Assembly: GCA_009928005.1 (NCBI GenBank)
Contig: RFVO01000007.1
Coordinates: 1-43,788, forward strand
From: Chitinophagia bacterium
GTDB lineage: Bacteria > Bacteroidota > Bacteroidia > Chitinophagales > Chitinophagaceae
Length of the DNA stretch: 43,788 nt
Direction of reading: 5' to 3'
A model generated the notes under the pieces. The model saw nothing but the letters and a program-made list of their open reading frames with translations, made no database searches and had not been told where the DNA came from. The position numbers and the translations under genes were made by a program. Below are positions 9,314-16,629 of this stretch, piece by piece; positions within the stretch are counted from its first letter, which is position 1; each line of letters begins with the position of its first letter.

Positions 9314-9356
9314 TTTTGCGGTTTTTTGCATACATTGTAAGCGTAAAACCGCAAAA
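9314..9356. promoter_or_regulatory. Operator-like inverted repeat at the start of the DeoR-family gene
   Basis: TTTTGCGGTTTT (9314-9325) / AAAACCGCAAAA (9345-9356), 19-nt spacer, second arm ends on the A of the ATG. Confidence 0.55.
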
Positions 9357-10102
9357 TGCTTAAAGAAGAGCGACTAGAATATATATTACATGAGTTAAAT
9401 CTGCATAACAAAGTTTTATCTGCGGATTTAAGCAATAAAATGGGTGTATCAGATGATACAGTTAGAAGAGATTTGCAAGAGCTTTCAACAGACAATAAAT
9501 TAATAAAAGTACATGGAGGAGCATTGAGTAAATCCTTTCATACTGCTTTTGACAGAGAGATGGTTTATGAAATAGAGAATAAAAATATCATTGCTAAAAA
9601 AGCAGCCGCACTTGTACAAAGTGGAATGTATATTTTAACTTCTGGTGGAACTTCTATGTTAGAATTTGCAAAAGCATTAGACCCTCATTTAAATGCTAGT
9701 TTTTTTACCTGTAGTTTAAATGCAGCTATTGAGTTCTCTCATCATCCTAGTATTGAAGTGGTCATGATTGGAGATAAAGTTTCTAAAGACTCTATGCTTA
9801 CAACAGGAGCCAATGCTGTTCAAGCGATTGAATCTATACAAGCCGACTTATGTATTCTTGGAATTAACTCCTTAGATACACAATTTGGCTTAAGTGAAAA
9901 CGACTGGGAAGTAGTACAAATAAAAAAAGCAATGATTAAGGCTTCTAAAAAAGTGGTCTGTATTGGTATTTCAGAAAAATTAAATTCTCAACAAAAAATA
10001 AAAGTGGCTGACATCAAAGACATTGATATTTTAATAACAGAGTTAGACCCCAATGATCCCCTATTAGACCCCTATAAAAAACATGAAATTCTCATCTATT
10101 AA
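9356..10102 (+). CDS. DeoR/GlpR-family transcriptional regulator
   Basis: N-terminal HTH (LSADLSNKMGVSDDTVRRDLQEL) and DeoR-type sugar-phosphate sensor domain. Confidence 0.92.
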   Translation: MLKEERLEYILHELNLHNKVLSADLSNKMGVSDDTVRRDLQELSTDNKLIKVHGGALSKSFHTAFDREMVYEIENKNIIAKKAAALVQSGMYILTSGGTSMLEFAKALDPHLNASFFTCSLNAAIEFSHHPSIEVVMIGDKVSKDSMLTTGANAVQAIESIQADLCILGINSLDTQFGLSENDWEVVQIKKAMIKASKKVVCIGISEKLNSQQKIKVADIKDIDILITELDPNDPLLDPYKKHEILIY

Positions 10103-10118
10103 TAATTAAAAAACAGTT

Positions 10119-13100
10119 ATGAAACTACAAAAAACAAAAAAGCCTTATTTAAGTAGGCTTATGATGGTTTTAGTACTGTTGTCAGGTATAACAGTTACCA
10201 GCTTTGCACAAGTTGTAATAAGCGGTAAAGTTACCAACCAAAAAGACAATAGTGCTATTGAGGGAATATCGATTGTTATCAAAGGCACCAACAAAGGTGT
10301 CAATACCGATAATAATGGTACTTTCTCTATTACACACAACGCAAGTGGTGTGATTACTTTAAACGCTTCAGGCGTTGGATTCAAAAGTCAAGATATTACA
10401 GTAGATACCAAGGGTACTACTAAGAATATCAATATTGTTTTAGTAGAACAATATTCAAAATTAGACGAAGTAGTGGTTACGGGTACTTCAGCAGGAACTA
10501 CCAAAAGACAATTAGGTAGCTATGTAAGTACCGTATCTGCAAATGAACTTAGTACAAGTGGTTCTTCCAATGTACTAGCTGCCTTACAAGGTAAAACAGC
10601 AGGTGCCCAAATTAGTCAAAATAGTGGCGACCCTGCAGGCGGTGTTTCTGTAAGATTAAGAGGTACTAGCTCAGTATTATCTTCTTCAGAACCATTATAC
10701 ATTGTTGATGGTGTTATCATTAATAATGCGACTAACAGAGTTACCAATACTTCAGGCAACTATGATGGTAATAACTTTGTAGGAAGTATTGGTCAAAACA
10801 GAATGGTAGATATTAATCCTGCCGATATTGACCATATAGAGGTTTTGAATGGTGCAGCAGCAGCAGCTACTTATGGAAGTAGAGCGAATGCGGGTGTAAT
10901 TCAAATTTTTACAAAAAGAGGTAAAACAGGTGCTCCAAAAGTTAGCTTCTCTTCTTCTTATTTAAATAGTTCTTTAAGAAAAAAATTAGAGGTTAACCAA
11001 TCACCTACTAAATTTGGTGGACCTACAGATGGTCCTGGTGCCTTAACACAAGACGTTATCGCTGCTCCTTTAGCTACTACCACTACTGCAGTTACAAGAT
11101 ATGATTATCAAGATTATATTTTCAGAAATGCCGCTGGAACAGACAATACCATTTCAATAAGTGGTGGTACTGATAAAACTAAATACTACTTTGGTGGTTC
11201 TTATTTCTTCAATCAAGGTATTATCAACAATACCGATTTCCAAAGATTTAGTTTCAGAACCAATATTGACCAAACAGTTAATAAATGGATAAGCATGAAC
11301 TTAGGTATAAACTATACCAATTCAGCTGCGAATGAAAAACCAGATGGTCAATCATTTTTCTCTCCTACTAACTCTATCACTATTATTGGAAACTTCCATA
11401 ATATTTGGGAAAGAGATGCCAACGGTAATATAAAAGCCATTGGTGAAAGAGGTAGAGTAAACCCAGTTTCTGTTATGGAAGATATTAAGCAAAAACAAGC
11501 CACCAACAGAGTTATCTCTAATTTTGGTATTAAATTAAAACCCATCAAACATTTATCTGTTGATTACTTAATGGGGGTTGATAACTATTCACAAAATGGT
11601 ACTACTTACATCCCTCCTTATGCTTATAATGCAAGCACTGGATTTTACGGTGGTGGAGCAACTTTAGATCCTACACAAAATGGTTATGCAAGTACAGCTA
11701 GCAATAGTTTCTTCCAAATTAACCATGATTTAAATGCAAACTACAATATTGATATCACTCGAGATATCAATTCAACTACACAGGTTGGTTTTTCTCAACA
11801 ATATGAGAAAAATAATTACATCTTATTCCAAGGAAGAGGATTTGCTCCTTTCATTCAAACAGTAAATGGTGCTAGTACTATTTTACCTGGCGTGGATGAT
11901 AGAAGTGAAATTTCAGTTTCTGGTACTTATATTCAACAAAACTTTAAATACAGAAACTACTTATTCTTAACTGGCGCCATTAGAAATGATGGTTCAAGTG
12001 TATTTGGTGCTAACCAACGCAATCAAACTTACAAAAAAGGAAGTTTGAGTTTTGTAGTATCTAGTACAGATACTTGGAATAGTTTAGGTATTTCAAAAGT
12101 GATTGATTTATTTAAAGTAAGAGCTGCCTATGGTGAAAGTGGAAACTTAACAGGAATTGGTGCTTATTCAAGATTCAACTCTTATAGCTCTAATTCATTC
12201 TTAGGCCGTAGTGCTTTAAACTCAAGCTCTACACTTGCCAATGAAAATGTAAAACCAGAAAGACAAGCTGAAACAGAATTTGGATTGGATTTAGGTGCAT
12301 TTAATAACAGAGTAGGTTTAACAGTAAACGTGTATAATAAAAAAGTTACCGATTTATTAATTAACAGACAGTTATCTCCTACCAATGGTTTTTCTAGTGT
12401 ACTAGATAACTTTGGTTCATTAGAAAATAAAGGATATGAGTTAATGTTAAGTTTAACACCCGTTCAAACAAAAGATTTGAAATGGGAAATGACAACAATT
12501 TATAACCACAATGAAAACAAAGCTTTAAAAATTGGTCAAGCCTTAACATTATTAAGTACCAATGCGGGAGCGCCAGTGGCTATTATTGAAGGTCAACCTA
12601 TTGGTGTATTCTATGGTACTTATTTTGCTAGAAATGCTGATGGATCTTATTTAACTAATACAGCAGGTATTCCACAAACAGCAAAAGGAACTCAAACTAC
12701 TGTTACGAATCCAACAGAATCTAAGGATGCTAATGGCTTACCAACTGGAACAGTTCTTAGAAAAGTAATTGGCAATCCTAATCCTGATTTCACAGGAAGC
12801 ATAGTTAATGAAGTAACTTATAAAAAGTTATCATTAAGGGCACAAGTTGATTTCGTAAAAGGCGTGAATGTATTTAATGCAGACTTTAGAACTCGCCAAG
12901 GTGTAGGAAACGGTAAAGTTGCAGAACAAGAGCAAAGAGGAACAATTCCTAGAGGCTTTATTACAGGCGTTTACGCGATTGAAGAATGGAGAGTTGATAA
13001 AGGAGACTACGTTAAGTTACGTGAGTTATCATTAAGCTATAATTTAGGTAAAGTAGCCTTTGCCAATAATTTAAGTATCAACTTTAGTGGAAGAAATCTA

Positions 13101-13235
13101 ATTTCTTGGGATGACTATAAAGGATACGATCCAGAAGTAAACGCAGCAGGTCAAAGTACTTTATTAAGAGGTATTGACTTTGGATCTACACCTATCCCTC
13201 GTTCATTCAGTTTCGGAATAAAAGCTGATTTCTAA
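10119..13235 (+). CDS. SusC/RagA-family TonB-linked outer membrane protein
   Basis: Carboxypeptidase-D-like regulatory domain, plug domain with VVVTGTSAG and SSSEPLYIVDGVIINN, C-terminal beta barrel. Confidence 0.96.
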   Translation: MKLQKTKKPYLSRLMMVLVLLSGITVTSFAQVVISGKVTNQKDNSAIEGISIVIKGTNKGVNTDNNGTFSITHNASGVITLNASGVGFKSQDITVDTKGTTKNINIVLVEQYSKLDEVVVTGTSAGTTKRQLGSYVSTVSANELSTSGSSNVLAALQGKTAGAQISQNSGDPAGGVSVRLRGTSSVLSSSEPLYIVDGVIINNATNRVTNTSGNYDGNNFVGSIGQNRMVDINPADIDHIEVLNGAAAAATYGSRANAGVIQIFTKRGKTGAPKVSFSSSYLNSSLRKKLEVNQSPTKFGGPTDGPGALTQDVIAAPLATTTTAVTRYDYQDYIFRNAAGTDNTISISGGTDKTKYYFGGSYFFNQGIINNTDFQRFSFRTNIDQTVNKWISMNLGINYTNSAANEKPDGQSFFSPTNSITIIGNFHNIWERDANGNIKAIGERGRVNPVSVMEDIKQKQATNRVISNFGIKLKPIKHLSVDYLMGVDNYSQNGTTYIPPYAYNASTGFYGGGATLDPTQNGYASTASNSFFQINHDLNANYNIDITRDINSTTQVGFSQQYEKNNYILFQGRGFAPFIQTVNGASTILPGVDDRSEISVSGTYIQQNFKYRNYLFLTGAIRNDGSSVFGANQRNQTYKKGSLSFVVSSTDTWNSLGISKVIDLFKVRAAYGESGNLTGIGAYSRFNSYSSNSFLGRSALNSSSTLANENVKPERQAETEFGLDLGAFNNRVGLTVNVYNKKVTDLLINRQLSPTNGFSSVLDNFGSLENKGYELMLSLTPVQTKDLKWEMTTIYNHNENKALKIGQALTLLSTNAGAPVAIIEGQPIGVFYGTYFARNADGSYLTNTAGIPQTAKGTQTTVTNPTESKDANGLPTGTVLRKVIGNPNPDFTGSIVNEVTYKKLSLRAQVDFVKGVNVFNADFRTRQGVGNGKVAEQEQRGTIPRGFITGVYAIEEWRVDKGDYVKLRELSLSYNLGKVAFANNLSINFSGRNLISWDDYKGYDPEVNAAGQSTLLRGIDFGSTPIPRSFSFGIKADF

Positions 13236-13260: not shown

Positions 13261-14553
13261 ATGAAAAAGATTCAATATATCATACAAACCACTTTCTTGC
13301 TGGGGATTATTTCCCTTACAAGTTGTAAGAAAGATTTCGTTAACCCTAATGCCCCTACAACTGACCAAGTATTTAGTTCGTCTAGAGGTTTAGTAGGTGT
13401 TAATATTGGTAACCAAAAAACCTATTCATTAGGGGGCGCTTCAGTAATATATAGCGTGGTAACTACCAACGCTTTTGCTACCAATGAAGTTATCTTAATG
13501 AACTCTGGTAATACCGCAGAATTCCAATTTAGTAAAGGTGGATCTTCAGTAGACGCCACTAATACTGTATTAGCTAATGCATGGACAAATGCAAATAAAG
13601 TTATTTATGATGCTAACTCAGTAATCAAAGCTGCAGCATCTTTAAATGATAAAGCCTATGCAAGTGGTCTGATTGCACACGCTTCTATCTTAAAAGCATT
13701 AGCGATGGGTAGTTTATCCATGTTATGGGAGAAAGTTCCTGATAGCATTGGTGTAAATGTTACCTTCTCAGATAGAATGGTGGGTTATACAAGAGCTATT
13801 GCTGTTTTAGACAATGCTATTGCAACCGTAAAAGCTAATCCTATAAGCGCTAGCTATAGTTCTGATGCTATTGCAGGTCTTGACTATTTAAATACATTGT
13901 ATGCATTAAAAGCAAGATATTCTACATTCTCAGGTAAATATAGCGATGCATTAGCTGCTGCTAATTTAGTAGACCTTACAAAAAAATCTACTTTTAATTA
14001 TGATGCAGTAAGTACAAATCCAATTTTCACTACCGTAACTTCCACTAATAACGTTTATCAAGCAATTGACTCAACACTAGGCTTACCTTCTTCTTTAGCA
14101 CCTTCAGCAGGTGATGGTAGAATTGCATTTTATACTTCTATCAATACAACTATTAATCCAAGATTTAGAATTAATGGATTTTATAATGCAACAACTACAG
14201 GTATTCCTGTTTACTTGCCAAGTGAAATGACATTAATTAAAGCAGAAGCCTATGCTAGAGCAAATGATTTAACAAATGCATTAACAGAATTAAATAAAGT
14301 AGTCACTAAAACAGCTGCTTCTGATCCATTTAAAATTGGTGCAAATCTCGCTGCCTCTACAGCTTCTACTCAAGAAGCTTTACTAACAGAGATATACAAG
14401 AATCGTTGTATAGAATTGTATATGTCAGGTTTGAAAATAGAGGATATGCGTAGATTCGGAAGACCCACTAGTGAAATGAAACGTAAATTCTTCCCTTATC
14501 CATTCAAGGAAAGAGATGGTAATACCAATACGCCTACAGATCCTAGTTTTTAA
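13261..14553 (+). CDS. SusD/RagB-family nutrient-binding outer membrane lipoprotein
   Basis: Lipobox LTSCKKDF; directly follows susC; C-terminal ...EIYKNRCIELYMSGLKIEDMRRFGRP. Confidence 0.93.
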   Translation: MKKIQYIIQTTFLLGIISLTSCKKDFVNPNAPTTDQVFSSSRGLVGVNIGNQKTYSLGGASVIYSVVTTNAFATNEVILMNSGNTAEFQFSKGGSSVDATNTVLANAWTNANKVIYDANSVIKAAASLNDKAYASGLIAHASILKALAMGSLSMLWEKVPDSIGVNVTFSDRMVGYTRAIAVLDNAIATVKANPISASYSSDAIAGLDYLNTLYALKARYSTFSGKYSDALAAANLVDLTKKSTFNYDAVSTNPIFTTVTSTNNVYQAIDSTLGLPSSLAPSAGDGRIAFYTSINTTINPRFRINGFYNATTTGIPVYLPSEMTLIKAEAYARANDLTNALTELNKVVTKTAASDPFKIGANLAASTASTQEALLTEIYKNRCIELYMSGLKIEDMRRFGRPTSEMKRKFFPYPFKERDGNTNTPTDPSF

Positions 14554-14567
14554 TGAACTTAAAATAA

Positions 14568-15308
14568 ATGAATATGCCTAACACTTTTAAAAGGACAACC
14601 GAAGAGTCTTCACTTTATAATAATATTGAAAATTTATCTACACATGAGATATTGACTAATATTAATAAAGAAGATCAAAAGGTAGCCTATGAAGTCGAAA
14701 AAGTGATTCAACCTATTCAATTATTAGTTGATGCAGTAACTGAAAAGTTAAGAGTTGGAGGAAGATTATTTTATATTGGAGCAGGCACTAGTGGTAGACT
14801 TGGGCTAGTGGATGCAAGTGAATGCCCCCCCACTTTTGGTGTACCAAGTGATTTAGTAATAGGTGTAATTGCTGGAGGACATCAAGTAGTGGTGGGTATC
14901 GCAGCAAGTGGTACCACACCCTATGTCATAGGTGGATTAAGAAAATGCAGAGCCGCAGGTATAACCACTGGTAGCATAAGTTGTAATAAAAATTGTCCTG
15001 TTTCTAAAGAAGCTGATTTCCCTATTGAAGTGGTAGTAGGTCCAGAATTTATAACTGGAAGTACTAGAATGAAAAGCGGAACTGCACAAAAAATGGTTTT
15101 AAATATGCTTTCCACTTCTGTAATGATTAAGCTTGGAAGAATAAAAGGCAATAAAATGGTCAACATGCAATTAACCAATCAAAAACTTTTCGAAAGAGGA
15201 GTGAAAATGATTATGGAAGAAATTGAAACATGTGATAAACAAAAAGCCACTGACTTATTAACTAAGTATGGTTCTGTAAAAAAATCCATTGAAATGGCGA
15301 AAACTTAA
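14568..15308 (+). CDS. murQ: N-acetylmuramic acid 6-phosphate etherase homologue with internal deletion
   Basis: YIGAGTSGRLGLVDASECPPTFGVP, VVVGIAASGTTPYV, GSTRMKSGTAQKMVLNMLST; region between IAGG and VVVGIAASG is only 2 residues. Confidence 0.9.
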   Translation: MNMPNTFKRTTEESSLYNNIENLSTHEILTNINKEDQKVAYEVEKVIQPIQLLVDAVTEKLRVGGRLFYIGAGTSGRLGLVDASECPPTFGVPSDLVIGVIAGGHQVVVGIAASGTTPYVIGGLRKCRAAGITTGSISCNKNCPVSKEADFPIEVVVGPEFITGSTRMKSGTAQKMVLNMLSTSVMIKLGRIKGNKMVNMQLTNQKLFERGVKMIMEEIETCDKQKATDLLTKYGSVKKSIEMAKT

Positions 15309-15354
15309 AATTTAGACTAGTCGCATAGTATAAATAGATGTTTAAAACATCTTA

Positions 15355-15381
15355 AAGGCCTGCTTTAGCGGGCCTTTTTTT
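15355..15381 (+). terminator. Rho-independent terminator after murQ (convergent with anmK)
   Basis: AAGGCCTGC-TTTA-GCGGGCCTT followed by TTTTT; preceded by AGATGTTTAAAACATCT palindrome (15336-15352). Confidence 0.85.
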
Positions 15382-15393
15382 GTATATCTGAAG

Positions 15394-16629
15394 TTATTGC
15401 GGAAGACTTATTTTACCCATAGATACTGGAATTTTAGTAGCATAGCCTCCTGCTAACATGGGACTGCCTGCAACAGCTTCATTGGCAAGTACTGCAAATA
15501 AAATAGCTTCTTTCGCATCTGGCTGAATACCTATATGCTCAGAACTTTCAATGGAAATATTTGGTAGTAGTGATTTTATATGTTCTATTACATGCAAATT
15601 ATGTATTCCTCCCCCGCTAGCATATATAGTATAAGTATCTTTACTCGGAACAAGCCTATTGATAGCATCTACAATGGTTTCTGCAGTTAATCTATTGAGA
15701 GTAGCCATAATATCTTCAGGTGAAATAGTTGTATTATTTGATACCAGTTGCGCTTTTTCAATAAAGGTTAAATTAAAAAGTTCAGGTCCAATTGTTTTAG
15801 GAAATCCTAATTCAAAAAATGAGTCTTGTTTCATTGCCTTTAATAACTCATTATTGATCACTCCATTTTTAGCTATTTCTCCATCCTTATCGAATGCTTT
15901 ATTATAATGAGCTCTCATAAATGAATCCATGAGTGTATTACCAGGACCAGTATCTGTAGAGAATACTTGTTCAAATGCCCCATTAGCTGGCAAATATGTA
16001 AAATTAGCAATACCTCCAATATTCAATAATAGCCTATTCTCTTTAGTGTCTGTCGCAATTAGGTAATCTCCATAAACTGCTAAAGGAGCTCCTTCTCCAC
16101 CAGCAGCAATATGTTTTTGTCTGAAATCACTTATAGTAATTATTCCAGTATGCACTGCTAAATGATCTCCATCGCCAATTTGTAAAGTAGCTGGACCAAA
16201 GGAATCTAAGGGATGTAAAGATTTTGGTGCATGATAAACAGTTTGACCATGACTTGCAATTAAGTCTATGGATGAAGCAACTATTCCCCAATCTGCCAAT
16301 GTATTATTAATCATTTTTGCATTTTCAATAGCTATCCATGGGTTCAATAAAGTTAATTTCTCTAATGAAACCATTTGTTTAGAAAAAATAGATAAAATTT
16401 CTTGCTTCATTGAATCAGAATAGGGAACGGTCGTGAATTTCAATAAAGAGAAACTAGTGTTCTTCCCAGAACCTTTCATTTCACATAATGCAATATCAAG
16501 GCCATCTAAAGAGGTTCCACTCATCAATCCCAAAATTTTTCGACTTGGTTTTTGAGCTATTTCATATAATTTTTGGATACAGGGATGCATATTCCTAAAG
16601 ATACGAAATGGGCTTGTAAATAAGACCAA
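15394..16629 (-). CDS. anmK: Anhydro-N-acetylmuramic acid kinase (start may be the internal Met at 16590)
   Basis: KILGLMSGTSLDGLDIALCE, SHGQTVYHAP, LLLNIGGIANFTYLP, DTGPGNTLMD. Confidence 0.93.
   Translation of the reverse strand: MVLFTSPFRIFRNMHPCIQKLYEIAQKPSRKILGLMSGTSLDGLDIALCEMKGSGKNTSFSLLKFTTVPYSDSMKQEILSIFSKQMVSLEKLTLLNPWIAIENAKMINNTLADWGIVASSIDLIASHGQTVYHAPKSLHPLDSFGPATLQIGDGDHLAVHTGIITISDFRQKHIAAGGEGAPLAVYGDYLIATDTKENRLLLNIGGIANFTYLPANGAFEQVFSTDTGPGNTLMDSFMRAHYNKAFDKDGEIAKNGVINNELLKAMKQDSFFELGFPKTIGPELFNLTFIEKAQLVSNNTTISPEDIMATLNRLTAETIVDAINRLVPSKDTYTIYASGGGIHNLHVIEHIKSLLPNISIESSEHIGIQPDAKEAILFAVLANEAVAGSPMLAGGYATKIPVSMGKISLPQ

Follow-up and report, generated by a model that had tools for sequence, protein, structure and literature searches.

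The murQ gene of the window, which here denotes the whole 43,788-nt stretch of a Chitinophagia bacterium contig (genome G000) that was analysed, is probably an ordinary, syntenic Bacteroidota murQ in which one recent and clean in-frame deletion of 87 bp has produced what is now a loss-of-function allele. Its product is most probably a dead enzyme. The reading frame is still open, and automatic annotation would hence continue to label the gene an etherase, which stands as a caution. The features on which this reading draws are collected in Table 1.

Table 1. Features of the murQ locus, in window coordinates.
Feature	Position	Strand	Remarks and basis
DeoR-family regulator	9356..10102	+	Head of the susC-susD-murQ run
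SusC-like TonB-dependent outer-membrane receptor	10119..13235	+	
SusD/RagB-family lipoprotein	13261..14553	+	Directly upstream of murQ; same order in G012
murQ	14568..15308	+	246 aa, stop-free ORF
Codon of E85 in DASE (E. coli Glu83 equivalent), kept	14820..14822	+	Alignment: L068 E83 = window E85
His105-Gln106, sole residues between IAGG and VVVGIAASG	14880..14885	+	Sequence, alignment
Deletion junction CATCAAG/TAGTGG; 87 bp of G012 (L082) absent	14886..14887	+	Alignment to G012
GC-rich hairpin and T run between convergent murQ and anmK, likely terminator	15354..15381	+	Sequence; similar stem in G012
anmK (anhydro-N-acetylmuramic acid kinase), intact	15394..16590	-	Makes the MurQ substrate

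Both NCBIfam models and solved relatives identify the open reading frame as MurQ. The protein scores 316 bits against PRK05441 (cut-off 168) and 280 bits against PRK12570 (cut-off 255), which places it in the MurQ sequence family, and stays below the cut-off of the TIGR00274 equivalog (277 against 302). All three models match it in two stretches, because the block in the middle is absent. Its likeness to the family extends over the whole sequence length and takes in the SIS phosphate-binding motifs, the Glu of DASE and the C-terminal part; what sets it apart is the lack of 29 residues between β2 and β3, among them the equivalents of Glu114 and Asp115 and the connecting helices. The gene neighbourhood, with anmK and SusCD, is also common to the murQ of sister species: in the window, murQ is the last gene of a DeoR-susC-susD-murQ run, and an intact anmK converges on it from the far side of a terminator-like hairpin. 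The anmK frame was listed as 15394-16629, with a TTG start at 16629, but the ATG at 16590 (398 aa) fits G090 and G143 better. The upstream genes between 2529 and 10102 (a sodium:solute symporter, a beta-lactamase-family serine hydrolase, a ThuA/GSDH protein, a class-V aminotransferase and the DeoR regulator) possibly constitute one locus for the use of amino sugars or peptidoglycan fragments. In broad terms, the arrangement of the DeoR-susC-susD-murQ run and anmK resembles that of the genes with which Tannerella forsythia takes up and uses MurNAc (PMC5790795).

The interval between IAGG and VVVGIAASG spans approximately 31 residues in intact relatives and only two in the window MurQ. The sister species G012, with an intact MurQ of 275 aa, served as reference for the deletion, and its alignment to the window reveals a single clean gap of 87 bp, with GGACATCAAG (to 14886) joined directly to TAGTGGTGGG (from 14887) and with flanks that are 92% and 91% identical in DNA. 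The net loss is 29 residues, in frame. This alignment bears out an earlier note on the same DNA, which had described an in-frame loss of about 29 residues that leaves only HQ in the interval, and an open frame whose 246 codons amount to a normal MurQ minus the block; the E. coli features that it had cited (a 31-residue interval, AVEGAED, Glu114 and the Glu of DASE, which is Glu83 in E. coli) agree with the alignment of relatives as well. Among the approximately 80 relatives that were read directly, the interval is full length in all, the window alone excepted. In-frame murQ genes devoid of the block were found in no genome other than G000 among 147 of the genus (129 with a murQ match) and in none of 399 genomes of the family, and a search of 396 genomes of the phylum with the block-less pattern, written with an ATT-coded Ile only, returned no other match. 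The exact junction sequence matched no viral contig. The second full-length murQ for which the earlier note had suggested a search is not present in G000, where the gene is single-copy, and no copy of the missing block was found elsewhere in that genome, ruling out its relocation.

The lost block contains AVENAED and the helical connection between β2 and β3. Numbered according to the intact relative L068, whose numbering coincides with that of E. coli at the catalytic sites, block residues A105, V110, E111, A113, E114, D115 and D133 are invariant in 49 intact relatives. The acidic pair of AVExAED, which corresponds to Glu114 and Asp115 of E. coli, is absent from the window, where E114 and D115 of L068 align to gaps, and the removal of the Glu114 region proposed from the letters alone is thereby confirmed. 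The two catalytic glutamates of E. coli MurQ are Glu83 and Glu114. The first of these is retained in the window as E85, invariant across the 50 alignment rows, and GAGTSGR, AASG and the C-terminal motifs are also kept, as had been claimed for the DASE Glu and the sugar-phosphate motifs. The earlier note had allowed for an equivalent Glu elsewhere in the protein; no substitute for E114 lies close to the break, and the next downstream Glu is at about residue 148. An otherwise orthologous gene has hence lost invariant active-site residues, in the manner of a pseudogene or loss-of-function allele.

The predicted structures point in the same direction. The AlphaFold model of the intact control L068 (pLDDT 91.9, pTM 0.86) places helices 102-106 and 119-125 between a strand at 95-99 and another at 134-138, so that the lost block corresponds to the crossover connecting one strand of the SIS sheet to another. 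In the model of the window protein (pLDDT 84.9, pTM 0.80), segments 86-94 and 96-103 fall below 50 pLDDT, β2 is gone, and the helix at 71-83 that carries the phosphate loop and DASE is replaced by a three-residue strand. Foldseek comparison to MurQ crystal chains yielded TM scores of up to 0.94 for L068, with an rmsd of 1.3-1.5 Å for most chains, and of 0.73-0.81 for the window protein, with an rmsd of 4.3-5.3 Å. The window protein is thus predicted to lack a complete SIS α/β fold, by a method not designed to judge the effect of deletions. The geometry of the fold suggests that a two-residue link is too short to bridge the crossover from one parallel strand to the other, and the shortness of this link, together with the predicted damage to the fold, makes loss of activity the likeliest outcome. 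Of the four options put forward in the earlier note, inactivation is therefore favoured by the invariant residues that were lost and by the predicted loss of β2 and of the phosphate-loop/DASE helix, whereas no positive evidence emerged for a sensor or for changed chemistry.

The suggestion that sister strains be searched for the same deletion had a mixed outcome: no second in-frame case was seen in the genus, but the same block is missing from the murQ of G056 (L103/L123, G056:C22:10693-11413), the single other block loss among the 129 genomes of the genus that match murQ. In this genome 89 bp are lost, out of frame, and GGTGGTCAAAA is followed directly by TAGTCATAGGG in a frameshifted gene. 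G056 shares about 73% DNA identity with the window, its closest relative being G030 (about 90%), and the two losses are independent events, since the block is present in closer relatives of each genome and the sequence around each junction is that of its own lineage. The recurrence of the loss indicates that murQ may be prone to deletion at this site. A stronger version of this idea, which invokes a genuine hotspot of deletion or a specific excision mechanism at the block, would explain both losses and is compatible with loss of function, yet it is doubtful at present. The right breakpoints fall on the same base and the left ones 2-3 nt apart, an unexpected agreement between species with this DNA identity, with a probability of about 1.6e-4 in a simulation of uniform deletions, although this is a post hoc test on two events. 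Direct repeats flank the block in relatives at homologous Gln codons (ATCAAG in G078, G055 and G090 and CCAAG in G009, both with a spacing of 84, and GTCA in G030 with a spacing of 87), but 44-64 six-base repeat pairs per gene occur at spacings of 30-200, making such repeats unremarkable, and the precise junctions (87 and 89 bp) do not follow from them, so that they are a weak candidate as sole cause. Hairpin-driven deletion was rejected, as folding at the block is unremarkable (z about 0), and so was a systematic tendency toward small deletions in G056, whose two other gaps relative to G030 are intergenic. The near-identical second deletion poses a small, testable question, namely what causes murQ to lose this stretch.

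Several observations weigh against loss of function. Only one third of random deletions keep the frame, as the window deletion does, and the remainder of the gene shows no decay, with constrained substitutions and no stops. Furthermore, the adjoining uptake genes and anmK are still constrained, which suits a working pathway and hence an intact allele in the population. On the branch leading to the window since its split from G012, murQ has accumulated 23 synonymous and four non-synonymous changes, like its constrained neighbour genes, and the deletion must therefore be recent or the assembly unrepresentative of the population. These counts show no relaxation of constraint after the event, which may be too young for any to be visible. 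The second alternative, an unrepresentative assembly, is unlikely but has to be taken seriously: the assembler may have erred or chosen a variant present in a minority of the population, the gene being intact in most real cells. G000 is a draft in 213 contigs, probably a metagenome-assembled genome, and other drafts also have trouble in the conserved core of murQ, with a break in G065 and a duplicated segment resembling a chimera in G125; the absence of the same stretch from G056, another draft, could hint at a shared artefact. The junction, however, has no overlap with G012 as reference, and no more than a single base with G078-like alleles; a join based on k-mers or overlaps would therefore require reads already carrying it. 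Both flanks match G012 to an equal degree, which excludes a species chimera at the window junction, and identity is likewise smooth across the junction in G056; other window genes with complete G012 counterparts have the same lengths as in that species. The G125 gene (L119, G125:C57:20300-22000), in which a divergent GAGTSGRLG...DASECPPT segment is duplicated and a frameshift is present, has the appearance of contigs from two strains fused into a chimera within the conserved core.

It is improbable that the short protein has been retained as a MurNAc-6P binder, be it a GCKR-like sensor or a dominant-negative partner, or as an etherase with altered chemistry. The open frame, the conservation of Glu85, GAGTSGR, AASG and the C-terminal motifs, and the paucity of non-synonymous changes on the window branch would fit such a role, and MurQ relatives that are not etherases exist in GCKR and NagS. 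GCKR (GKRP) is a distant, non-catalytic homologue that binds phosphosugars, but it has two complete SIS domains, whereas the one SIS domain of the window protein is incomplete: without the β2-β3 connection, it is no longer an intact phosphosugar-binding domain. NagS, the GlcNAc-6P dehydratase of Streptomyces, is a MurQ-related SIS protein with different chemistry, but it belongs to a separate clade with an intact active site of its own (PMC12680351), whereas the window protein, apart from the missing block, is directly orthologous to neighbouring MurQs. The predicted damage, moreover, falls on the part that binds the sugar phosphate, with β2 lost and the phosphate-loop helix and DASE region predicted to be disordered; no other species among the genomes searched has an in-frame block-less form, and the parallel loss in G056 is frameshifted. 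Least probable of all is a combination of both ideas, in which a specific mechanism repeatedly excises the block in the genus and this lineage has retained the in-frame product, devoid of catalysis, to tune the use of cell-wall sugars in response to MurNAc-6P.

Under the favoured reading of a recent loss of function, an 87-bp in-frame deletion would have struck an intact murQ not long ago, leaving as product a misfolded remnant at best. MurNAc-6P would no longer be cleaved in vivo, and that made by AnmK would accumulate or drain by another route. Mutants of murQ in E. coli, S. aureus and B. subtilis build up MurNAc-6P, and those of S. aureus and B. subtilis show no growth defect in rich medium (PMC5061867). 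An intact anmK beside a broken murQ would, if true, amount to a natural experiment in incomplete peptidoglycan recycling, in which MurNAc-6P should build up. The murQ/anmK pathway is dispensable in the genus, given that murQ is absent from four of the 93 good-quality genomes and that three of those four are also devoid of anmK. The genomes in question are G058, G133, G135 and G094, the last of which keeps only a partial match (241 residues); murQ and anmK, an adjacent pair, tend to disappear together.
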